Source: an uncultured Actinomycetes bacterium (GTDB lineage Bacteria; Actinomycetota; Actinomycetes; Nanopelagicales; Nanopelagicaceae). From it: 63,112 nucleotides of DNA. Of this stretch, positions 6,525 through 18,900 are shown in pieces. The stretch spans positions 1 through 63,112 of the forward strand of contig CAINRW010000024.1 of assembly GCA_903852815.1 (NCBI GenBank). Reading direction: 5' to 3'. The notes under the pieces were generated by a model that saw nothing but the letters and a program-made list of their open reading frames with translations, did no database searches and was not told where the DNA came from. A program made the position numbers and the translations under genes. Each line of letters starts with the position of its first letter. Within the stretch, counting starts at the first letter, position 1.

Positions 6525-8669
6525 ATGAGAATCAGTTTTAAGTCAATTGCTGTCCTTACATTGTCTGCCATTTTTGCAGCCACTCTGGGATTTTTGCCGA
6601 TTGCCCAAGCAGAAGAATCTCATGGATCAAATAACATCCGCGAAAATCACTACAGCGCTGATGATCCTGAGCATCTGAGTGCACCAAACAAAATTGTTGC
6701 AATGTCCACCAAGCCTGCCGCAGTAGCCCCTGCAGTAATTGCAGGAAATATTAATTACGTGTACGGAACTCCAGTCATGATCGATCCAACTGTTTATGTA
6801 ATTTGGTATGGAACGTGGACAAACCCTTGTGCTGCAACTGGCGATAATTCAACGCCCGCGATTGTTAATGATTTTCTTAAAGGTGTTGGAGTAACGCCAT
6901 GGTATGGAATCAACACGCGTTATTACCAACAGGCAAATTCAACTGCCCCAAAAACTTATGTAACTAGCACAGTCAACTGGGGCGGATGCACATATGACAA
7001 TGCGTCTTTAGGTACTTCAATCGATGGTGCAACAGGAACACAATCCGGTGACATCGTTAATGCAGCTCTGACAAACAACACATTGCCACGCGATCCAAAT
7101 GGTCTCTACTTTGTGTTTACAAGCAGCAATATAAATGCAACAGGCTTCTTAACTTCTTGGTGCGGATATCACTCTTACCTAAATCCTTCATACAACGTCA
7201 CTCATAACATTAAGTATTCATTTGTTGGTGATCCATCATCATCTCTTGCAAGTTGCAACGGCCAAACAACTCCTGGAGTTTCTCCTAATTCAAACCCACC
7301 AGCCGATGCAATGACTAGCGTAATTGCGCACGAATTAGTTGAAGCCGTTTCAGATCCAATGCTAAACACTTGGTTTGATGCAGGCGGAAATGAAAATGCA
7401 GACAAGTGTTCATGGACTTTCGGAACACAATCAACTGCTACCAATGGTGCTAAGTACAACATGGTGGCATCAGGGCGTCAGTATTTGATTCAACAAAACT
7501 GGATTCCAGATGCTCCACAGGGATGCGGTATGAGTTACACAGCACCGGCATTAACTGCAACAACTGCTACGGCTACTGTGACCCTGACTCAAGGAACAGC
7601 AGTGCCGGGTACGGTTATTCCTGTTACTGCAATTGGTGGAACTTCGCCGTACACCTATGCAATATCACCGACTTTGCCAGCAGGCCTGACTTTCAATACA
7701 ACTACAGGTCGTATCACCGGCACAGCAACAGTTTCACAGACAACAACAGTGCAAACTGTCACAGTTACTGATTCTTTAAGTGCAACTAGTAGTTCAAGTT
7801 TTAATTTAATTGTTAAGCCACCTGCTCCTATTGCAACCAAAGCAGTAGCTACCGTTGCATTGTTGACTGGTCGCGCAATTACTCCTGTTACTCCAATTAC
7901 GGCAAGTGCTGGAACTGCGCCATACACTTTCGCAATTTCTCCAGCGCTTCCTACCGGATTGTCATTTAATACAACTACAGGACAAATAACTGGCACTCCA
8001 ACTGCAAATCTCACAAGTCGCTTACAGACAGTGACAATTACAGATGCAAATGCGGCTAAAGCGACATCAACATTTACGTTGGCGATTACAACTCCTGCTG
8101 CTTTGAGTAGAACAGTTGCCGTTGCGACGAAGAAGTTAATGATTAATAAAGTTGCGGCCGCATTCACACCTGTAACTTCTGCGGGTGGCTACCCTGCAAA
8201 GGTATTCACGGTTAACCCAGCACTTCCGACAGGTTTGATTCTTAATTCTGCAACTGGAGCAATCACTGGAACGCCTACGGCATCACAAGCTCCAACCTCA
8301 CATACCATTACGGTTACAGATGCAGCAGGCACAGCCGTGTCAGGTGCGTTCACATTAGAAGTTAGCCCAGCACTTGTTGCAATAGCTGCAATTCCGGCAA
8401 CTACGATTGTGCACAGGAGCCCAGCAGTTGCAATCACAGCATTTACTCCAGTAACTGCGAGCGGATCAACTTTCACGGCTTATCGATATGCAATCACTCC
8501 AGCGTTGCCAACCGGATTAACTTTCAGCACAACAACTGGTGCGATTTCTGGTCGTACACCTACCGTTGCAAGCGCACTCAAGACCTACACAGTCACAGTT
8601 ACTGATGCCGCACCTACTACGGTCGGAGCATCATCAGTGAAGGTAACTTTCACGCTAACAATTAGCTAG
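6525..8669 (+). CDS. Secreted protein: EXORDIUM/phosphate-induced-1-like domain followed by putative-Ig (He_PIG-like) repeats
   Basis: VYVIWYGTW...GFLTSWCGYH...KYSFVGDP...DAMTSVIAHELVEAVSDPMLNTWFDAGG resembles plant Phi-1/EXO proteins; repeats of 'TPYTYAISPTLPAGLTFNTTTGRITGTATVSQTTTVQTVTVTDS'. Confidence 0.8.
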   Translation: MRISFKSIAVLTLSAIFAATLGFLPIAQAEESHGSNNIRENHYSADDPEHLSAPNKIVAMSTKPAAVAPAVIAGNINYVYGTPVMIDPTVYVIWYGTWTNPCAATGDNSTPAIVNDFLKGVGVTPWYGINTRYYQQANSTAPKTYVTSTVNWGGCTYDNASLGTSIDGATGTQSGDIVNAALTNNTLPRDPNGLYFVFTSSNINATGFLTSWCGYHSYLNPSYNVTHNIKYSFVGDPSSSLASCNGQTTPGVSPNSNPPADAMTSVIAHELVEAVSDPMLNTWFDAGGNENADKCSWTFGTQSTATNGAKYNMVASGRQYLIQQNWIPDAPQGCGMSYTAPALTATTATATVTLTQGTAVPGTVIPVTAIGGTSPYTYAISPTLPAGLTFNTTTGRITGTATVSQTTTVQTVTVTDSLSATSSSSFNLIVKPPAPIATKAVATVALLTGRAITPVTPITASAGTAPYTFAISPALPTGLSFNTTTGQITGTPTANLTSRLQTVTITDANAAKATSTFTLAITTPAALSRTVAVATKKLMINKVAAAFTPVTSAGGYPAKVFTVNPALPTGLILNSATGAITGTPTASQAPTSHTITVTDAAGTAVSGAFTLEVSPALVAIAAIPATTIVHRSPAVAITAFTPVTASGSTFTAYRYAITPALPTGLTFSTTTGAISGRTPTVASALKTYTVTVTDAAPTTVGASSVKVTFTLTIS

Positions 8670-9130: not shown

Positions 9131-9232
9131 TGTCCGTATTGTCCGTACTCCGCTACATGGGGGTATCTCTAGCGTAGAAGTAAATAGAGGGACGCTTCTA
9201 AGAACGTAGTAATCCATAAGGACGCTTCTACG
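9131..9232 (+). promoter_or_regulatory. Conserved upstream region of sigma cassette 1: TGTCCGT direct repeat plus AGCGTAGAAG and CTTCTACG arms
   Basis: TGTCCGT at 9131 and 9140; AGCGTAGAAG 9171-9180; GGACGCTTCTA at 9190 and 9220. Same layout upstream of cassette 2. Confidence 0.6.
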
Positions 9233-9248
9233 ATCAAGATTGGTCCAA

Positions 9249-10589
9249 GTGACTAACAAGAGCACGGCTCCACAAGGTTGGACCGTCGGCGACCTAGGCA
9301 GTTTTTATGCCGAGCACCGGTCAGAGCTCCACGCCCATGCCTCTCGCGTATTGAAAGACTCAATCAAGGCTCAAGAAATCACTCAAGATGCCTTAATCAA
9401 ATTCATGATGGCTGCTCCAGAGCTTGAATCTGCCGAACATGCGCTCTCTTATCTTCATCGCACTATTGAAAACCTTTGCATCGATTTCTTCCGCGCCGAA
9501 GGCCGTCGCCCTAATCTTGTTGTTCTAGATGATGCAACTGCAGAAATAGAAGCACATTGGCAAGACAGCGGAGATCACTCTGCGGCAATGTCAGCAGCTG
9601 AAGATGCAGCGATTATTCGCCAGGCACTTGCTTTGCTTTCTCCTGCAGAGCGCGCAGCTCTTGTTATGTGGGAAATCGAAGGTCGCTCTACAAGTGAGAT
9701 CGCGACAGAACTTGGCATTAAAGAAAGTGCAGTGCGCCATACCGTTTCACGTGCTCGTGTATCACTTCGTAAAGTTCTTGCAACGCTTGTTATTAATGAA
9801 GAGACCGGTCTTACTGCCCTCGATGCATTATCAACGACATACAAAAAAGCTGCAGAGCTTGCACAGAAATCATCTAAAGCTGCCCTCTCATTGCTTCTTA
9901 TCGTTACTGCTTTCTTTGGTTTTAACTCTATAAAAGGAACGCCTATCGCGATCGTCGAAACAACTACCGCGCCAACAGCTATTTCACAACCAACAGATCC
10001 ATCTGCTTCGGCTTCTCCTTCCATCACTGCTTCACAGAGTGCTGCAGCGGCAGCTGCTGAAAAGAAGGCGCAGATCGATGCACTTAACGTTAAAGCCGCA
10101 CCTATCTCTTTCTATGGTCTAGATAAAGCCGGTATTCCAACTGCTTTCACCGTGACTGATGAATCAAATGTTGCAGGAATTGGCCGAGTTACTAAGGGTG
10201 TTACATCTCTTGGAAATATCGGAATCATCATCAACAACCAGTTCATCACCGGCTCTGTTGGTCCAAACGTTCTTATCGATCAAGTCATCACAATTGATGG
10301 AACAGGTACTCACTACTCAGCAAACAGTGTCTCAGTCGGTTTTGTTAGCAACTGGAACGCTATTGAAGTAAACAGCATCGACACGATCATCGAGCGATTA
10401 GGTAATGGCACGTATTTGCTAAGCGCAACTTTCAACATCGGCTATCTCACTCCAACTGACTTTGCTTACCCAGTTGGAAATCGTGGAAGCGATCTAGCCG
10501 ATGCACCGAAAACAATCACAACGAAAATTTTAATGAATGCAGGAAAGACACAGGTACTTGCGCAAGCTGTTCAGGTGATTAACAAATAA
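9249..10589 (+). CDS. ECF-type RNA polymerase sigma factor with C-terminal TM helix and extracytoplasmic domain (cassette 1)
   Basis: Sigma region 2 (ASRVLKDSIKAQEITQDALIKFMMAA...SYLHRTIENLCIDFFRAEGRRP) and region 4 (ALALLSPAERAALVMWEIEGRSTSEIATELGIKESAVRHTVSRARVSLRK), TM SLLLIVTAFFGF, then ~230 aa of Ser/Thr/Ala linker and novel domain. GTG start at 9249 by alignment with copy 2; the track ORF starts at 9240. Confidence 0.88.
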   Translation: MTNKSTAPQGWTVGDLGSFYAEHRSELHAHASRVLKDSIKAQEITQDALIKFMMAAPELESAEHALSYLHRTIENLCIDFFRAEGRRPNLVVLDDATAEIEAHWQDSGDHSAAMSAAEDAAIIRQALALLSPAERAALVMWEIEGRSTSEIATELGIKESAVRHTVSRARVSLRKVLATLVINEETGLTALDALSTTYKKAAELAQKSSKAALSLLLIVTAFFGFNSIKGTPIAIVETTTAPTAISQPTDPSASASPSITASQSAAAAAAEKKAQIDALNVKAAPISFYGLDKAGIPTAFTVTDESNVAGIGRVTKGVTSLGNIGIIINNQFITGSVGPNVLIDQVITIDGTGTHYSANSVSVGFVSNWNAIEVNSIDTIIERLGNGTYLLSATFNIGYLTPTDFAYPVGNRGSDLADAPKTITTKILMNAGKTQVLAQAVQVINK

Positions 10590-10597
10590 AAAAATTT

Positions 10598-10729
10598 CCT
10601 CATCGCAACCGGATAGTCGATGGGGAATTTGGTGAATCAGCACGTGCGATTCATCGAACCGAGTTAGTGATTTTCTCGCCAAGTACGAGCTCATCACAAA
10701 ACTCAAGCCGACTCTCGGATCGTCCGAGA
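10598..10729 (+). promoter_or_regulatory. Structured intergenic leader between sigma gene and surface gene (cassette 1), four hairpins
   Basis: Stems: CCTCATCG/CGATGGGG; TGAATC-A-GCACGTGC-GATTCA; GTGAT..CTCG/CGAG..ATCAC; TCTCGGA-TCG-TCCGAGA. Confidence 0.6.
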
Positions 10730-10752
10730 ATCGACTAATCGAAAGGAAACAA

Positions 10753-12441
10753 ATGTCTACAAAGACAACTTTCAAGCGCATCGCGCTTGTAACTGTTGCA
10801 GCGTTGGGTCTCAGCCTTGTTGCTGTAGCTCCATCACAAGCAGTTGTGGTTGACCTAACTTGTACTGTTGCAGGAAATATCGCAACATCTACAACATGCA
10901 GCCAAAACTCAGGTGCAAACAATTACGTAGTTCTAACAGCTGGTTCAGCTGACATCTACATCACAATCGCTGGTGGATCAATCGTTGGTGGAGGATCATC
11001 AAAGGTAGTTACACATGACACTTCAGTAGCAATCGCTACACCAATAGTTGGAACAATTACTGTTACAGGTTATACATTTGCACTTGGTGCTCAGTCAGCA
11101 ACAGCAACAGATACTGTCGTAATCACAGTGACTGATGCAGTAGCTACGGCTCTTACTGCAGCTCGTATCGCTGGTACTTACTACGATCACTCAACTGCAT
11201 TTATCAAGTCAAGTTCACTTGGCTCAGAAGCAACTGTTGATTCAACAGGAATTACATCTATTAAAGATGCTTCTGCAACTCCTGTAGCTCGTGTAACTGT
11301 TAAGCAATATTCATCAACTGATGCTACTTACTTCATGACACCACTCAGCGCAAAGCTAGTGACTGTTGCTGTTGTTGGTGGAGCAGGTTATGTTTCAACA
11401 GCAAGCAACGGAACACTTTCTGGTCCATCAGCAAGCGTTACTGCAGATGAAAGTTCAGACTTCTATGTTTATCCAAATGGCAATGCAGGCGTTGCGTCAG
11501 TAACAGTTACTGTTAATGGTGTCCTACTTGCTACAAAGTCAGTTACTTTCTACGGAACTGCTACAGCACTCACAGCTGCAGTAGCAACAACTGTTCTTAA
11601 AATCGGATCAAACGCAGCAGCAGTAGTAGTTACTGCAAAAGACTCACTAGGTAACATTGTGCCAAACACACCTGTTTATCTAGTTTCAGATACAGCAGCT
11701 TCTATTGCAACAGGTACATCACTTGGTACAACAGATTCAACTGGAACACTTACAGCGGCCATTTCAGGTGTTGCTGCAGGATTAGCTTCACTTACATTTG
11801 CTAACGGAACAGATACAGCCGCAGTCGGTTATGTTGTTTCTGGTGCAACAGCAGTTCGCGTAAGTGCTGCCACATCTTCAACTGCAACTGGTGTAGTTCT
11901 TGCATTCGACAAGGACTCATACCTTCCAGGTGAAGTTGCAACTGTTACAGCAACTGTTACAGATGCATCTGGTGCTGTTCCAAGTGGAATTGGTTATGTT
12001 GTATTAACAGCAGGTATCACTTCATCTCTAGTAATGACTTCAGGTTCCCTAACTCTTGGAGCAATTACAACAACAATCACACCAACAGGTAATGCTGGAG
12101 CACAATCATTCACAGTCAACATGCCTTTATCAGCAGGTACAGTGACTCTTAGTGCTACTGGAGTTACTGGTGTAACTGTTACAAATGCAACAGCAGTAGT
12201 TGCTAATGATTCAACTGCAGCAGATGCAGCAGCAGAGGCAACTGATGCAGCTAACGCAGCAACTGATGCAGCTAACGCAGCAGCTGAAGCAGCAGATGCA
12301 GCAACAGCTGCAGCACAAGATGCAGCAGATGCAGTAGCTGCTCTTTCAGCACAGGTTGCGACTCTGATTGCTGGCCTAAAGGCTCAGCTAACAGCTCTAA
12401 CAAACCTAGTAATCAAGATCCAGAAGAAGGTAAAGGCATAA
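10753..12441 (+). CDS. Large secreted surface protein with Ig-like segments and Ala-rich heptad-repeat C-terminus (cassette 1)
   Basis: Signal peptide MSTKTTFKRIALVTVAALGLSLVAVAPSQA; Big-1-like 'VTAKDSLGNIVPNTPVYLVSDTA'; tail TDAANAATDAANAAAEAADAATAAAQDAADAVAALSAQVATLIAGLKAQLTALTNLVIKIQKKVKA. Confidence 0.85.
   Translation: MSTKTTFKRIALVTVAALGLSLVAVAPSQAVVVDLTCTVAGNIATSTTCSQNSGANNYVVLTAGSADIYITIAGGSIVGGGSSKVVTHDTSVAIATPIVGTITVTGYTFALGAQSATATDTVVITVTDAVATALTAARIAGTYYDHSTAFIKSSSLGSEATVDSTGITSIKDASATPVARVTVKQYSSTDATYFMTPLSAKLVTVAVVGGAGYVSTASNGTLSGPSASVTADESSDFYVYPNGNAGVASVTVTVNGVLLATKSVTFYGTATALTAAVATTVLKIGSNAAAVVVTAKDSLGNIVPNTPVYLVSDTAASIATGTSLGTTDSTGTLTAAISGVAAGLASLTFANGTDTAAVGYVVSGATAVRVSAATSSTATGVVLAFDKDSYLPGEVATVTATVTDASGAVPSGIGYVVLTAGITSSLVMTSGSLTLGAITTTITPTGNAGAQSFTVNMPLSAGTVTLSATGVTGVTVTNATAVVANDSTAADAAAEATDAANAATDAANAAAEAADAATAAAQDAADAVAALSAQVATLIAGLKAQLTALTNLVIKIQKKVKA
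12241..12348 (+). repeat. Degenerate 21-bp (heptad codon) tandem repeats in surface gene 1
   Basis: actgatgcagctaacgcagca is perfectly repeated at 12241-12261 and 12262-12282, followed by degenerate units. Confidence 0.75.
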
Positions 12442-12475
12442 TCGCCCCCCCTTTGATCTGAATAAGATCTAGAAC

Positions 12476-12516
12476 CAAAGCCCGGTTCCTCTTCGGAGGG
12501 GCCGGGTTTTGGCTTT
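12476..12516 (+). terminator. Rho-independent terminator of surface gene 1
   Basis: aaagCCCGGttCCTCttcgGAGGggCCGGGttttggcttt; TTCG tetraloop and T-run. Confidence 0.88.
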
Positions 12517-12550: not shown

Positions 12551-12622
12551 TGTCCGTTTTGTCCGTTCTCCACCACAAATTGACCAGTCCAGCGTAGAAG
12601 CAGATTGAAGGACGCTTTTACG
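12551..12622 (+). promoter_or_regulatory. Conserved upstream region and leader hairpin of sigma cassette 2
   Basis: TGTCCGT at 12551 and 12560; CGTAGAAGC (12593-12601) pairs with GCTTTTACG (12614-12622), just before GGAGA and GTG. Confidence 0.6.
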
Positions 12623-12637
12623 AATGGAGAAATTCAA

Positions 12638-13975
12638 GTGGCTAAAAAGAGCACGGCACCACATGTGTGGACCGTTGGCGATCTTGGCAGTTTTTATGCC
12701 GAGCATCGTTCAGAGCTCCATGCCCATGCCTCCCGTGTTTTGAAGAATTCAGCTAAAGCTGAAGAAATCACTCAAGATGCCTTAATCAAATTTATGATGG
12801 CTGCTCCAGAGCTTGAATCTGCTGAGCACGCACTTGCATATCTACACCGCACTATTGAAAACCTTTGCATCGATTTCTTCCGTGCCGAAGGCCGTCGCCC
12901 CAACCTTGTTGTTCTAGATGATGCAACTGCAGAGGTTGAAGCACAGTGGCAAGACAATGGCGACTATTCAGCAACGATGTCAGCTGCTGAAGATGCAGCG
13001 ATTATTCGCCAGGCACTTGCATTGCTTTCTCCAGCAGAGCGCGCAGCGCTTGTTATGTGGGAAATCGAAGGTCGCTCCACAAGTGAGATCGCGACAGAAC
13101 TTGGCATTAAAGAATCTAATGTTCGATACACAGTCTCACGTGCCCGCGCATCACTTCGTAAAGTTCTTGCAACGCTTGTTATTAATGAAGAGACTGGTCT
13201 TACTGCTCTCGATGCATTATCAACGACATACAAGAAAGCTGCAGAGCTTGCACAAAAATCATCTAAAGCTGCGCTCTCACTTCTTCTTATCGTTACTGCG
13301 TTCTTCGGTTTTAACTCACTTAAGGGAACACCTTCTACAATCGTCGATGCAACTTCATCAACGACAAACTCTGCAGAAGCTACTCCTTCACAATCTGCAT
13401 CACCTTCTATCTCTGCCTCACAGAGCGCTGCTGCGGCAGCTGCTGCAAAGAAGGCGCAGATTGATGCACTTAACGTTAAAGCTGCACCTATCTCTTTCTA
13501 CGGTCTAGATAAAGCCGGAATACCAACTGCTTTCACTGTAACTGATGAAACAAATGTTGCAGGTATCGGCCGTGTTACTAAGGGTGTTACATCCCTTGGA
13601 AATATTGGAATCATCATCAACAACCAATTCATCACCGGCTCTGTTGGTCCAAACGTTCTCATCGATCAAGTCATCACAATTGATGGAACAGGTACTCACT
13701 ATTCAGCGAATACCGTCAGTGTTGGTTTTGCCGAGAGCTGGAACGGCGTTGAAATAAACAGCATCGATTCATCGATTGAGCGCCTAGGAAATGGCACTCA
13801 TCTCATCACAGCAACTTTTGATATCGGTTATCTCAAGCCAACTGATTTTTCATTCCCAGTTGGAAACCGCGGAAGCGATCTTGCCGATGCACCAAAAACA
13901 ATTACTACGAAAATTTTAATGAATGCAGGAAAGACACAGGTGCTTGCGCAAGCAGTTCAGGTGACTAACAAATAA
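12638..13975 (+). CDS. ECF-type RNA polymerase sigma factor with C-terminal TM helix and extracytoplasmic domain (cassette 2)
   Basis: Close paralogue of 9249..10589 over its full length; GTG start with GGAGA upstream. The track ORF starts further upstream at 12605. Confidence 0.9.
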   Translation: MAKKSTAPHVWTVGDLGSFYAEHRSELHAHASRVLKNSAKAEEITQDALIKFMMAAPELESAEHALAYLHRTIENLCIDFFRAEGRRPNLVVLDDATAEVEAQWQDNGDYSATMSAAEDAAIIRQALALLSPAERAALVMWEIEGRSTSEIATELGIKESNVRYTVSRARASLRKVLATLVINEETGLTALDALSTTYKKAAELAQKSSKAALSLLLIVTAFFGFNSLKGTPSTIVDATSSTTNSAEATPSQSASPSISASQSAAAAAAAKKAQIDALNVKAAPISFYGLDKAGIPTAFTVTDETNVAGIGRVTKGVTSLGNIGIIINNQFITGSVGPNVLIDQVITIDGTGTHYSANTVSVGFAESWNGVEINSIDSSIERLGNGTHLITATFDIGYLKPTDFSFPVGNRGSDLADAPKTITTKILMNAGKTQVLAQAVQVTNK

Positions 13976-13983
13976 ATAGCTTT

Positions 13984-14115
13984 CCCTATCGCGTCCGGAT
14001 ACACGATGGGGAATTTGGTGAATCAGCACGTGCGATTCATCGAATCGAGTGAGAAGCGCTTTCGCGAAACGCGAAGGAGTTTTAAAACTCAAGCCGACTC
14101 TCGGATCGTCCGAGA
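13984..14115 (+). promoter_or_regulatory. Structured intergenic leader between sigma gene and surface gene (cassette 2), four hairpins
   Basis: CCCTATCG/CGATGGGG; TGAATCAGCACGTGCGATTCA (14019-14039); CTTTCGCG-AAA-CGCGAAGG (14059-14077); TCTCGGA-TCG-TCCGAGA (14099-14115). Confidence 0.6.
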
Positions 14116-14138
14116 ATCGACTAATCGAAAGGAAACAA

Positions 14139-15827
14139 ATGTCTACAAAGACAACTTTCAAGCGCATCGCGCTTGTAACTGTTGCAGCGTTGGGACTCAG
14201 CCTTGTTGCTGTTGCTCCATCACAAGCAGCATATAACGCACTTGCATGTACTGTTGCAGGTTCAGGCGCTGGTTCATCATCAGTTGCTTGCAGCCAGAAC
14301 TCAGGTGTAAACAACTACGTAGTTCTATCTGCTAACAACTCAAAAGATCTATACATCACAATTGCTGGTGGATCAATGGTTGGCGGAGGATCAGTAAAGG
14401 TAGTTACAGCAGGCGGTTCAGTTGCAATTGCAACACCAACAGTTGGAACAATCACAGTAACTGGTTACACATTTACTGCTGGTGCTCAGGCAACAACAGC
14501 TACAGATACTGTAGTAATCACAGTAACTGATGCAGCTGCTGTAGCTCTTGCTGCAGCTCGCGCAGCTGGTACTTACTTTGAGCGCTCAACAGCATTCATC
14601 GGTGCAGGTTCATCACCTGTTTCTTCAGATACAGCTAATTTAGTTGCTCCAAAGGCAGCTTCATCAACTCCTGTTGCTAACATCGAAGTTATTCAGTACT
14701 CAACAGCTACTGGCGTTTCTCCAGCAGTTATGATGCAGAACGCAAGTGCAAAGCTAGTAACAGTTTCTGTTGCTGGTGGAGCAGGTTACGTTTCAACAGC
14801 TAGCAACGGAACTCTTGCTGGACCATCTGCAAGTGCAACTGGTGCTGCAGATTCTGATTTCTACATCTACTCAAACGGTAATGCAGGAGTAGCTTCAATC
14901 ACAGTATCTGTTAACGGATCAGTAGTTGCTACAAAGTCAGTAACTTTCTACGGAACAGTTGCTTCACTAACTGTTGCGCCAGCACAGTCACTATTTTGGA
15001 ACGGCTACTCAACTCCTAATGCAACTGTGATCACTGCAAAGGATTCATTGGGTAACGTAGTTCCTAACGTTGACATCTACACTGTTTCAGATGCAACAAC
15101 AGTAATTGCTGATAAGAATTATGTTGGATACACAGATTCAAAGGGTGTTCTCAGTGCAACCATCGCCAGCCTTGCAGTTGGTACAGCATCATTAGCTTTT
15201 GCTAATGGAACTGATTCAACAGCGGCTGGTTATGTAGCTACATCAGCAACAGCAGTTCGCGTAAGCGATGGTTCTGGTGATATCTCTGTCGTAGTTTCAT
15301 TCGACAAGGACACATACCTTCCAGGTGAAGTTGCAACAGTTACATACACTGTTTCAAACGCAGCTGGTCCAGTTCCAGCATGGAGCTCTGCTTCTGGTTA
15401 TGTGAATGACACAACATCATCACTAGCTCTTACAACGAATAACCTACCTTCTTATTATTTGAATATTAAGGGTGATAAGGGTCAGGCTTCATACAAGGTC
15501 AACATGCCTCTATCAGCAGGTACAGTTGAACTTTCAACTACTCCTTACTCAGACTCAGTCAAGGTAACTAATGCATCAGCAACAGTTGCTCTAGATACAA
15601 CTGCAGCAGATGCAGCAGCAGAGGCAACAGATGCAGCTAACGCAGCAACTGATGCAGCTAACGCAGCAGCAGAAGCAGCAGATGCAGCAACAGCTGCAGC
15701 ACAAGATGCAGCAGATGCAGTAGCTGCTCTTTCAGCACAGGTTGCAGATCTAATCGCTGGCCTAAAGGCACAGCTAACAGCTCTAACAAACCTAGTAATC
15801 AAGATCCAGAAGAAGGTAAAGGCATAA
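14139..15827 (+). CDS. Large secreted surface protein with Ala-rich heptad-repeat C-terminus (cassette 2)
   Basis: Signal peptide MSTKTTFKRIALVTVAALGLSLVAVAPSQA and ~90 aa C-terminus nearly identical to cassette 1; ATG at 14139 preceded by GAAAGGAAAC. The track ORF starts upstream at 14049. Confidence 0.88.
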   Translation: MSTKTTFKRIALVTVAALGLSLVAVAPSQAAYNALACTVAGSGAGSSSVACSQNSGVNNYVVLSANNSKDLYITIAGGSMVGGGSVKVVTAGGSVAIATPTVGTITVTGYTFTAGAQATTATDTVVITVTDAAAVALAAARAAGTYFERSTAFIGAGSSPVSSDTANLVAPKAASSTPVANIEVIQYSTATGVSPAVMMQNASAKLVTVSVAGGAGYVSTASNGTLAGPSASATGAADSDFYIYSNGNAGVASITVSVNGSVVATKSVTFYGTVASLTVAPAQSLFWNGYSTPNATVITAKDSLGNVVPNVDIYTVSDATTVIADKNYVGYTDSKGVLSATIASLAVGTASLAFANGTDSTAAGYVATSATAVRVSDGSGDISVVVSFDKDTYLPGEVATVTYTVSNAAGPVPAWSSASGYVNDTTSSLALTTNNLPSYYLNIKGDKGQASYKVNMPLSAGTVELSTTPYSDSVKVTNASATVALDTTAADAAAEATDAANAATDAANAAAEAADAATAAAQDAADAVAALSAQVADLIAGLKAQLTALTNLVIKIQKKVKA

Positions 15828-15860
15828 TCTGCCCCCTTTGATCTGAATAAGATCTAGAAC

Positions 15861-15900
15861 CAAAGCCCGGTTCCTCTTCGGAGGGGCCGGGTTTTGGCTT
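15861..15900 (+). terminator. Rho-independent terminator of surface gene 2
   Basis: Same sequence as cassette 1: aaagcccggttcctcttcggaggggccgggttttggctt. Confidence 0.88.
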
Positions 15901-15974
15901 TTCTGGAAGGCTTTCTCGACTGGCACGCAGACAAGGTTCAGGCAGTTCTCAGGAAAAAGGTATCTAATATCCAC

Positions 15975-17327
15975 ATGACTACTCCAACACGCATCTATAA
16001 GCACTCAGGCGCTGGTACAGACTGGGCCGCGCTGGTTCTGGGCCTTGGGTTGGGCTTCACAATAGCTTTGGAGTTAACAACGGTACGCAAAAGTGACTTC
16101 ATATCTGTCTATGCCTCGATAGCTACTTTTTCTCGAATTTCTGCATTAGTAGGAACGTATCTGGCAATCGTAGGAATCTTTTTAGTAGCTCGAATCCCCT
16201 GGGTTGAAAAAGGTGTTGGTCATGATCGATTGGTTACCTGGCACCGCAATTTAGGTCCATGGTCTTTGTATGCAATTGGTGCACATGTTGCTTTTATTAT
16301 TTTATCTTTCGCAGGTCAAGATTCAATTCCTCTGTATAAAGAATTATGGCGAATGCTCAATACTTTCGACTGGATGTGGTTTGCTTTAGCAGGATTTATT
16401 CTGATGGTTTTAGCTGGAGTTACTTCATATAAAAAAGCACGGGCAAAGATGAGTTATGAAACGTGGTGGATTATTCACGTTTACACATACTTGGCAGTTG
16501 CTGCATCCTTTATGCACCAAGTTATTAATGGTCAGATGTTTATTGGTCACCCATTAAACCGTGCTTATTGGACCGCGTTATATATTTTCATGGCATTCTC
16601 AATTATTTATTGGCGCTTTGGTGTTCCACTGGTGCGATCTCTAAAGATTAATTTGCGAGTCGAGAAAGTTGTAGTTGAAGGCCCAGGAGTAATTTCAGTA
16701 ATCATGAAGGGCCGTAATCTGCACACATTAGGTGCACAAGGTGGTCAATTCTTCGGTTGGCGTTTTCTTACTCGCGGCCATTTCTTGATGTCACATCCTT
16801 ATTCACTTTCGGCAGCACCGACTGAACATTTGATGCGAATTACAGTCAAGGACTTAGGTGATCACTCACGTTCATTAGCATTTATTAAGCCTGGTACCCG
16901 TGTATTTGTTGAAGGTCCATACGGTGCCTTTACTGCAGGGCGAAGTACACGACCACATGTTGTTTTAGTTGGTGGCGGGGTTGGAATCACTCCGATTCGC
17001 GCAATCATGGAAGAACTAAGTGGCGGCGTGCAGATGGATGTTATTTTCCGAGCATCAAAAGAAGAAGATTTAGTTTTGAAAAAAGAACTTGATTACATGG
17101 CATTTAATAGCGGTGGGTCTATCCGTATTCATTACTTAGTGGGATCACGCAAGAAGCACCCAATGGATGTTTATGCAATGCGCCGACTAGTCCCACAGTT
17201 TGCAGATTCAGACGTTTACATCTGTGGACCAGAGCCATTGGTAAGTGCAGTTCGTGAAGCTTTTGAAAAGGCTGGTGGATCAAAGAATCGCTTCCATGAC
17301 GAGGCATTTGCTTTCCACCGCGAATAA
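15975..17327 (+). CDS. Ferric reductase-like transmembrane protein with FAD/NAD(P)-binding oxidoreductase domain
   Basis: Multiple TM segments with His residues (WHRNLGPWSLYAIGAHVAF, WWIIHVYTYLAVAASFMHQ), then HPYSLSAAP, FVEGPYGAF, VLVGGGVGITPIRAIM, VYICGPEPLV. ATG at 15975. Confidence 0.9.
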   Translation: MTTPTRIYKHSGAGTDWAALVLGLGLGFTIALELTTVRKSDFISVYASIATFSRISALVGTYLAIVGIFLVARIPWVEKGVGHDRLVTWHRNLGPWSLYAIGAHVAFIILSFAGQDSIPLYKELWRMLNTFDWMWFALAGFILMVLAGVTSYKKARAKMSYETWWIIHVYTYLAVAASFMHQVINGQMFIGHPLNRAYWTALYIFMAFSIIYWRFGVPLVRSLKINLRVEKVVVEGPGVISVIMKGRNLHTLGAQGGQFFGWRFLTRGHFLMSHPYSLSAAPTEHLMRITVKDLGDHSRSLAFIKPGTRVFVEGPYGAFTAGRSTRPHVVLVGGGVGITPIRAIMEELSGGVQMDVIFRASKEEDLVLKKELDYMAFNSGGSIRIHYLVGSRKKHPMDVYAMRRLVPQFADSDVYICGPEPLVSAVREAFEKAGGSKNRFHDEAFAFHRE

Positions 17328-17392
17328 AACACGCAGGTGTATATGCGATTGCCTTAAGAATTTTCTCAGGGAGATGGCGTTTAGTAGGCATT

Positions 17393-17423
17393 AAGACAAG
17401 CAAGATTGGTAAGACAAGCAAGA
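17393..17423 (+). repeat. 13-bp direct repeat AAGACAAGCAAGA, 18-bp period, upstream of the FMN-binding gene
   Basis: Perfect copies at 17393-17405 and 17411-17423. Confidence 0.6.
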
Positions 17424-17451
17424 CGGATGTGACAAACGAGAGGTAGCGAAG

Positions 17452-18108
17452 ATGAAAAGAGCACTGTTAATAGCAGGCGGCACTTTAGGTGGACTCGGCG
17501 CAGTAATGGCAATTACACCGCCACAATTATCTTCAACTAACTCATTAGGCCTTATAGGAGCAGGTGCAATCGGGGCACCTGCCGTGACTGATACTTCAAC
17601 GGCTTCTGCTACACCTACTGCGTCGTCAACCAAAGCTGCAACCACAAAACCAGTAGCGACCAAGAAGGCAACACCAGCTGCAACGAAGAAGGCAACACCA
17701 GTGGCAAGTAAGAGTGCAACCGCGCAAGCTACTGCAACAGCCAGTGCCAGTGCATCGGCAACGCCGGCTGCGACTCCAACAAAAACAGCAACGCCTGTCG
17801 CAACTAAAACAACAGCACCTGTCGTTACGAAATCTACAAGTGGAACATTTGCTGGTCCAGCAATTTTCGTGAACTACGGAACAGTTCAAGTTCAAATTAC
17901 TGTAAATAATGGAAAGATCACTGATGCAAAGGCGCTTCAAGCACCTAACGGTCGCAGTCAGCGTTGGACAGATATGGCAGTTCCAACTTTGCGTCAGCAA
18001 ACATTGAGTGCACAATCAGCAAATATCCAAGGTGCATCAGGTGCTTCATACACTTCTTATGGTTGGTATAAATCTTTACAGGGGGCTCTCGCTAAAGCTG
18101 GTCTCTAA
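17452..18108 (+). CDS. FMN-binding domain-containing secreted protein
   Basis: Signal/TM N-terminus, Thr/Ala/Lys-rich linker, then VQVQITVNNGKITDAKALQAPNGRSQRWTDMAVPTLRQQTLSAQSANIQGASGASYTSYGWYKSLQGAL, the RnfG/NqrC-type FMN-binding domain. Confidence 0.88.
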   Translation: MKRALLIAGGTLGGLGAVMAITPPQLSSTNSLGLIGAGAIGAPAVTDTSTASATPTASSTKAATTKPVATKKATPAATKKATPVASKSATAQATATASASASATPAATPTKTATPVATKTTAPVVTKSTSGTFAGPAIFVNYGTVQVQITVNNGKITDAKALQAPNGRSQRWTDMAVPTLRQQTLSAQSANIQGASGASYTSYGWYKSLQGALAKAGL

Positions 18109-18129
18109 AGTATTAGATAGGCTCTAGCA

Positions 18130-18900
18130 ATGAACCACGTACGCAGACAGTTTCCTGTTTGGGGAACCATCATTGACGTGGATTGTTCTTCTCAAGTAAT
18201 TGATTCAAACCAGTTAAACAACGCAGTACAAGACATCCGAGATTTTTGTGTAACAGCTGATGAGGATTTTTCAACCTACATTGATTCGTCTTGGGTCACT
18301 CGATTACGCCGAGGAAAAGTAGAGATTCACGATTGTCCCAAAAACATTCAAGCGGTTTGGAACCTTTGCGAACAGGCAAAATACTTAAGTGACGACGCTT
18401 TCGATCCTTGGGCCGTGGAGGGTGGTTTCGATCCTTCTGGATTAGTAAAAGGTTGGGCAGCAGATATTTGCGCCGACATGTTGGTCTCTGCTGGCGCGCA
18501 GCATGTACAAATTAATGCCGCCGGTGATTTAGCATTGCGCGGCGGATATTTTGATTCTGCAGATGGCGTGATTAAGCCTTGGAAAATCGGGGTCGTTAAT
18601 CCAGATAACAAGCAAGAAATATTACAAACTTTTGAAATTACTGATGGCGCGATTGCAACATCAGGGACATACGAACGCGGTGCGCACATCACCGACCCAT
18701 ATACGGGCATGATTGCCATCGGTGCAAAATCTGCAACTGTTGTTGGGCCAGATGGGTGGCTGTGTGATGCTTTGGCAACAGGATTAATGGTTGCTGGTCA
18801 GGATGCAGCAAAGTGGTTTGGCCAGGAAGAGTTAGCCGACTATAAAGTTTGGGTGATTGATCGACATGAAAATAATGCATGGAGTATTGGTGACGAGTGA
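18130..18900 (+). CDS. FAD:protein FMN transferase (ApbE family)
   Basis: GGFDPSGLVKGWAADICADML...INAAGDLALRG...ITDGAIATSGTYERGAHITDPYTG...SATVVGPDGWLCDALATGLMV. Confidence 0.92.
   Translation: MNHVRRQFPVWGTIIDVDCSSQVIDSNQLNNAVQDIRDFCVTADEDFSTYIDSSWVTRLRRGKVEIHDCPKNIQAVWNLCEQAKYLSDDAFDPWAVEGGFDPSGLVKGWAADICADMLVSAGAQHVQINAAGDLALRGGYFDSADGVIKPWKIGVVNPDNKQEILQTFEITDGAIATSGTYERGAHITDPYTGMIAIGAKSATVVGPDGWLCDALATGLMVAGQDAAKWFGQEELADYKVWVIDRHENNAWSIGDE

Follow-up and report, generated by a model that had tools for sequence, protein, structure and literature searches.

A membrane-tethered ECF sigma factor, a structured RNA leader and the gene for a large secreted surface protein follow one another in the genomes of freshwater Nanopelagicales, and this trio recurs across this one actinobacterial family. 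The window, that is the whole stretch of DNA analysed here (63,112 nucleotides from an uncultured member of the family), carries two such units as direct tandem copies (Table 1). Each unit, running from a putative promoter through the tethered sigma factor, the leader and the secreted surface protein to a terminator, is probably a self-contained, self-activating surface-coat operon under its own tethered ECF sigma factor. The wider locus is a larger find than the sigma protein itself. The order sigma gene, leader, surface gene was found in all loci with a long enough contig, in several genera of the family. The relatives comprise 18 loci from public genomes, including IMCC26103, IMCC19121, AAA278-O22, AAA044-N04 and Planktophila lacus, and many further loci from other genomes of the same family.

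Table 1. Features of the two tandem units in the window (aa, amino acids; TM, transmembrane).
Feature	Position	Strand	Basis
Putative promoter, unit 1	9131..9157	+	TGTCCGTATTGTCC-N6-CGCTACA; one of two exact genome matches
Membrane-tethered ECF sigma factor, copy 1	9249..10589	+	GTG start, 446 aa, stop at 10589
Sigma region 2, copy 1	9303..9509	+	Pfam PF04542
Sigma region 4, copy 1	9612..9764	+	Pfam PF08281
Near-invariant juxtamembrane stretch and TM helix, copy 1 (GLTALDALSTTYKKAAELAQKSSKAALSLLLIVTAFFGFN)	9807..9926	+	Invariant columns G187 to N226, hydropathy
Ectodomain, copy 1, predicted all-beta, without known family	10074..10586	+	AF2; Pfam; Foldseek
Structured RNA leader, unit 1	10593..10738	+	R1 match 106.9 bits; covariation; fold z -4.9
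Leader hairpin P1, unit 1	10596-10627	+	
Leader hairpin P2, unit 1	10628-10658	+	
Leader hairpin P3, unit 1	10661-10704	+	
Leader hairpin P4, unit 1	10706-10736	+	
Large secreted surface (S-layer-like) protein 1	10753..12441	+	Signal peptide, Ig-like stretch, C-terminal Ala-rich coiled coil
Probable terminator, end of unit 1	12475..12512	+	Hairpin same as at 15860-15897
Putative promoter, unit 2	12551..12577	+	TGTCCGTTTTGTCC-N6-CACCACA; other exact genome match
Membrane-tethered ECF sigma factor, copy 2 (paralogue)	12638..13975	+	ORF, Pfam
Structured RNA leader, unit 2	13979..14124	+	R1 match 111.6 bits; fold z -5.8
P3 palindrome, unit 2	14059-14077	+	CTTTCGC-GAAAC-GCGAAGG
Large secreted surface (S-layer-like) protein 2	14139..15827	+	67% identical to protein 1
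Terminator, end of unit 2	15860..15897	+	17-pair stem and T-rich tail

Domain architecture and divergence of the tethered sigma factor

Pfam places sigma-70 region 2 at residues 19-87 of copy 1 (Sigma70_r2, E 4e-12) and region 4 at residues 122-172 (Sigma70_r4_2, E 3e-13), and the sigma protein matches TIGR02937 above the cut-off in NCBIfam. With regions 2 and 4 (PF04542, PF08281, TIGR02937) and without regions 1 and 3, it has the composition of an ECF sigma factor, as the original prediction had stated. Residues 183-446 of copy 1 gave no Pfam match. About 30-40 residues separate region 4 from a single hydrophobic segment, KSSKAALSLLLIVTAFFGFN, whose best 19-residue Kyte-Doolittle window (1.69) starts at residues 210-211. 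The TM helix spans about residues 210-229 and is followed by a variable Ser/Ala/Thr linker and an ectodomain of ~170 residues (276-446); the single C-terminal TM segment and the Ser/Thr/Ala-rich linker that had been proposed earlier are both present in copy 1. Because Lys is found on the N side of the TM segment, the protein is predicted to be oriented N-in/C-out. The juxtamembrane-TM stretch is the best-conserved part of the protein and is invariant in the sigma types A and B, described below, alike.

Between the two window copies, identity is 91% in the sigma part, 89.5% in the ectodomain and 67% in the linker, with dN/dS values of 0.10, 0.14 and 0.27, respectively, and of 0.06 in the juxtamembrane-TM stretch. 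The values for sigma part and ectodomain indicate that both folded parts are under purifying selection, and the difference between 0.14 and 0.27 that the ectodomain is selected while the linker is loose. Selection on the ectodomain had been suspected before and is supported by this comparison. The accompanying claim that the ectodomain is as conserved as the sigma domain holds between the two window copies and fails across species, where the ectodomain diverges far faster (in most congeners 40-49% identity vs 82-89% for the type A sigma domain). The ectodomain of copy 1 is 66-68% identical to that of type B proteins such as L005, L027 and L028, whose sigma domains are 48-50% identical, and 40-45% identical to that of many type A proteins, whose sigma domains are 82-88% identical. 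Judged from these identities, sigma domain and ectodomain are exchanged independently among relatives.

An AF2 model of the ectodomain, calculated with 22 sequences, is all beta and confident (pLDDT 89.4, pTM 0.85); the model of the full-length protein (pLDDT 62.5) is not good enough to show how the juxtamembrane helix lies relative to the sigma domain. Searches of the ectodomain in Pfam and NCBIfam gave no match, PHROGs returned generic sigma factors only, and Foldseek found no PDB structure below E 0.1 (best E 0.14). The best VIA-align Z, 4.4, was obtained with the mycobacterial LpqH, and the ectodomain was left without a fold assignment because unrelated NTF2-like rows stand just below this value. 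A SnoaL extension as in ECF41 and ECF56 was likewise considered: Pfam gave no match, the TM segment intervenes, and the weak NTF2-like rows (Z about 4) are at noise level. The prediction of an ectodomain without assignable family thus held in Pfam, NCBIfam, Foldseek and VIA-align, and nothing found pointed to a named ECF group that shares this neighbourhood and has a well-studied sensor domain of this kind.

A profile of the ectodomain detected 31 of 394 genomes sampled across the class, all 31 within the Nanopelagicales family. In L033, L095 and L097 sigma domain and TM segment are kept and the ectodomain is replaced by a tail of 83-91 residues, with the surface gene still downstream; in some lineages, therefore, the sigma factor can work without the ectodomain. 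In each of these three loci the leader is degenerate and the surface protein has no Ala-rich stalk. L034, L099 and L103 have a variant ectodomain that can hardly be aligned to the main type, and the paired surface proteins are without a stalk as well. Stalk motifs were found in the surface proteins paired with 17 of 17 canonical ectodomains vs one of eight others, under a class rule that mislabels L084 and L094. A link between ectodomain class and stalk class is suggestive only, being weak and phylogenetically confounded.

Putative promoter motifs, RNA leader and surface genes

Type A sigma genes, which include both window copies, are preceded by TGTCCGTNTTGTCC, six bases and CGCTACA or a sequence close to it. 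In type B the sigma domain shares only about 50% identity with type A, and the genes are preceded by CAACATTT, followed by GTGTCTT. Among 49 distinct upstream regions, the A motif is present at 24 of 26 type A genes and the B motif at 21 of 23 type B genes, with neither motif occurring at the other type; L082, which has a mixed signature, was assigned to type A on the basis of its region 2. The association between motif and sigma type has a Fisher p of 3e-13, a value that overstates independence and is inflated because the sequences are related. Since promoter and sigma domain are adjacent and would be exchanged together anyway, their co-inheritance could partly be linkage. In the 1.63 Mb genome to which the window belongs, TGTCCGTNTTGTCC has two exact matches, one ahead of each window sigma gene, and a scan with the A motif yielded one further match with a single mismatch, compared to two matches for the reversed control pattern. 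The same genome encodes four proteins with sigma-70 region 2, namely the two tethered sigma factors, a housekeeping-like one and one other ECF. The simplest reading would be recognition of its own promoter by each sigma factor, with read-through into the surface gene. From this we infer a self-activating membrane-tethered sigma factor dedicated to one surface gene.

A hairpin-like sequence lies between sigma promoter and start (9160-9240 of the window), as it does 5' of sigma genes in other loci, with GCGTAGAAG...CTTCTACG in type A and GGGCAAGACGTTGCC in type B. The sigma mRNA may have a structured leader of its own.

The gap of about 160 bp between sigma and surface gene forms a chain of hairpins (P1-P4). 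In 21 aligned sequences, from which the R1 leader model was built, 98.3% of the cells in P1, P2 and P4 pair, with double-sided changes at 15 pairs. None of 500 shuffles of this alignment reached this pairing, and sliding the partner by one to three bases reduced it to 33-44%. In 43 family-wide sequences, the alignment of which was fitted to the model, compensatory changes occur at 26 of 37 pairs. The loops are near-constant (UCCGGAUA in P1, AGCACGUGC in P2), and the leader is unchanged with sigma type, A or B. R1 matches are present in 45 of 135 genus genomes and in 77 of 251 family genomes (9 of 17 genera), mostly as one copy per genome, with two in the window genome; outside the family a single marginal match was obtained (E 0.0065).

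In Rfam the leader has no match at gathering or at E < 0.5, the remaining hits being tRNAs or chance matches far below gathering, mostly inside repetitive coiled-coil codons. A match on the opposite strand at 10558-10608 (22 bits vs a gathering value of 64) was discarded as noise. A sigma-70-like promoter was searched for within the leader and not found. On its strong covariation, the leader is a family-wide structured RNA new to Rfam. P3 is missing in several genera (L077, L083-L085, L088) that keep P1, P2 and P4, which is in keeping with P3 having been added to an older P1-P2-P4 leader.

Both surface proteins of the window have 562 residues, a signal peptide and a C-terminal coiled coil that terminates in IKIQKKVKA, and they are the only two genes of this kind in the genome, both at the sigma locus. 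They are termed S-layer-like because of size, secretion and composition, and may form a layer. Their first codons contain two small hairpins, GTCTACAAAGAC and AAGCGCATCGCGCTT (10753-10800 and 14139-14190), which are conserved at the DNA level in many relatives. Just 5' of the sigma unit the window encodes a secreted protein with a Phi_1 (phosphate-induced protein) domain and repeated He_PIG Ig domains (6525-8669); it is likewise present in two close relatives (L018, 5238-7358; L019, 3014-5143). On the 3' side of the surface units (15894-18900) lie genes for a ferric-reductase-like membrane protein, an FMN-binding-type protein and an ApbE-like protein, a set that is located further downstream in L020, L023, L131, L132 and L134. 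In L034 the opposite strand carries another surface gene, which has a leader of the P4 type. The MAG records of L021, L030 and L034 are labelled Bifidobacterium breve or Streptomyces griseus; they carry the freshwater-family locus and look misnamed.

Inverted surface-gene cassettes in relatives

A tyrosine recombinase (PF00589) lies between two surface genes that face each other in four relatives (L090, L129, L128 and L100). One cassette lies behind sigma gene and P1-P2, while the other starts only from P3 (L090, L129, L128); the contig of L100 ends just upstream of P1, and its arrangement is similar. When the two leaders of a locus were compared, identity was found to begin at or inside the P3 palindrome in L090 and L129. 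In L128, which is part of the complete genome G166, leader identity around the site is exactly 17 bp (TCTCATGGTTCATGAGA) and both flanks have diverged. Within each genome the palindromes have one and the same spacer, which varies from genome to genome (GACTT, GACAT, GGTTC). Paired cassettes are 33-55% identical overall (L090, L100), and their ends are most alike. Recombinase and identical inverted sites, the two elements of a tyrosine-recombinase switch, occur together in L090, L128 and L129. The P3 palindromes thus have the appearance of tyrosine-recombinase inversion sites. DNA inversion at the P3 palindrome is a probable means by which these relatives swap the surface gene.

No recombinase motif and no inverted cassette were found in the window, where the P3 palindrome of unit 2 occurs once only, and a search of its genome with an N-terminal piece of the L090 recombinase, run without a positive control, gave no match. 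As the units are direct tandem copies without a recombinase, switching is not claimed for the window. A role of P3 as a general inversion site was narrowed accordingly, several genera having no P3 and the window units no partner site. Separately, draft contigs of the relatives often stop within a few hundred bases past the leader (L079, L081, L093, L102, L106); such ends are expected where several genes have a common 5' end or where populations differ.

Proposed mechanism, alternatives and relation to known systems

In the proposed mechanism the TM helix would hold the sigma domain on the cytoplasmic side, and the beta-rich ectodomain would lie on the outside. There the ectodomain would detect the state of the envelope, most likely that of the surface layer which its operon builds. 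A signal would then free the sigma domain for RNA polymerase, either through a change of conformation or through cleavage within the membrane or close to it, and the freed sigma would transcribe essentially its own operon alone from the dedicated upstream promoter. Transcribed between both genes, the leader would tune the surface-protein part through stability, processing or translation. Where relatives have a tyrosine recombinase, hairpin P3 would also serve as an inversion site, and inversion would place alternative surface genes behind the same promoter, sigma gene and P1-P2 leader. For the release step we favour release or unmasking at the juxtamembrane stretch upon a signal from the ectodomain. 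Looking for site-2 proteases had been suggested at the outset, and one homologue (PF02163) was found in the genome. Release by proteolysis is only plausible, because this homologue is a universal housekeeping enzyme and no site-1 protease was identified. A more far-reaching and tentative version, which we hold as possible, is that the surface layer encoded downstream is itself what the ectodomain monitors, giving one closed loop per cassette, and that P3 inversion in many relatives swaps the coat, for example for phage escape, and leaves the sensor undisturbed.

ECF sigma factors usually have several targets, and the scan for further targets relied on a strict motif. The sigma factor might hence belong to a conventional many-target envelope-stress response in which the adjacent surface gene is one target among others; we consider this very unlikely, since the two exact motif matches in the genome are both at the tethered-sigma locus and the one single-mismatch match compares with two for the reversed control. 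An unlikely reading, too, is that the sigma is constitutively membrane-localised and active without release, so that TM helix and ectodomain merely anchor it, for example to couple surface-gene transcription to the secretion machinery beside it in a transertion-like manner. Pfam reveals no anti-sigma domain in the short spacer between region 4 and TM segment, and the loci without ectodomain (L033, L095, L097) retain sigma and TM 5' of a surface gene; however, the ectodomain is under purifying selection and present in most carriers of the family, and cleavage is what activates IutY, the TM-anchored sigma factor whose biology is known (PMC8999054).

The leader and its hairpin P3 can also be read at the level of DNA. 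The P2 loop holds a palindrome, GCACGTGC, and P3 is a probable recombination site in some species, but it is highly improbable that the leader is conserved as a DNA element (protein-binding palindromes or a promoter) rather than as an RNA structure: pairing is kept by compensatory changes as the sequence varies, many G-U pairs lie on the coding strand, and P1, P2 and P4 persist in genera from which P3 is absent. Homologous recombination between repeats, or assembly artefacts, could produce P3 and inverted cassettes without a site-specific switch. Several of the loci come from draft contigs, some of which stop at the leader, and the cassettes are alike at both their 5' and 3' ends. This explanation is quite unlikely given the complete genome of L128, in which the identical 17-bp palindrome stands between leaders otherwise diverged on both sides, the start of identity within the palindrome in L090 and L129, the recombinase between the cassettes in every case, and a spacer that is identical within and different between genomes.

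C-terminally extended, TM-bearing ECF sigma factors had been mentioned for Actinobacteria, and the literature agrees: ECF48, ECF52 and ECF53 are C-terminally TM-anchored and have a zinc-finger (ZAS) anti-sigma domain, ECF52 has in addition a carbohydrate-binding domain after a Pro-rich region, and SCO4117 is pleiotropic and likely autoregulated, with release by proteolysis having been proposed (PMC8999054, PMC5826349). Like these proteins, the window sigma is fused C-terminally to a TM segment and an extracytoplasmic extension. Membership in the three groups was ruled out since the zinc-finger anti-sigma domain is missing (no Pfam match in copy 1; no Cys or His in residues 173-213), and the ectodomain is different. 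Unlike ECF52, the window sigma has no carbohydrate-binding domain detectable by Pfam in residues 183-446 and a Ser/Ala/Thr-rich linker; unlike the pleiotropic SCO4117, it is linked to a single surface gene and to a structured leader. IutY (ECF243) of Pseudomonas putida, which functions in iron cell-surface signalling and has an anti-sigma fused to it (PMC8999054), likewise combines sigma, TM segment and a signal-receiving exterior part in one polypeptide. A fused anti-sigma or FecR-like extension as in IutY was not found in the window sigma by Pfam or NCBIfam. The SigI-RsgI systems of Clostridium thermocellum divide sigma and anti-sigma between two proteins; there, too, an exterior sensing domain of a membrane protein controls a sigma factor for secreted or surface products, whereas in the window sigma factor and exterior domain are one protein.

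The cassettes of the relatives resemble the sapA cassettes of Campylobacter fetus, in which surface-protein genes are swapped behind one promoter by DNA inversion. Their leader-side inversion site is reminiscent of the phase-variable CwpV of C. difficile, a surface gene controlled by leader inversion (PMC2784873). Three features set the relatives apart from both systems: the site of the probable inversion is one of the hairpins of a conserved RNA leader, the recombinase is encoded within the segment that would invert, and the promoter would be that of a tethered sigma from the same operon. In the open-access papers searched, we found neither the combination of tethered sigma, dedicated promoter, RNA leader and leader-hairpin swap nor any report of surface layers or phase variation in Nanopelagicales.

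To our knowledge, the surface biology of Nanopelagicales is almost unknown. These bacteria (acI) are dominant in many lakes, and phage predation is believed to shape them (PMC10202952). In the streamlined genome of the window, half of the sigma factors would serve one surface gene locus. If the proposed reading is true, this would be a dedicated surface-coat regulator without an anti-sigma factor, accompanied by a structured RNA that is new and family-wide and by a probable system for switching the coat in bacteria that are hard to culture. A bacterial group that ranks among the most abundant in lakes thus seems to have a dedicated system for the control of its surface coat.
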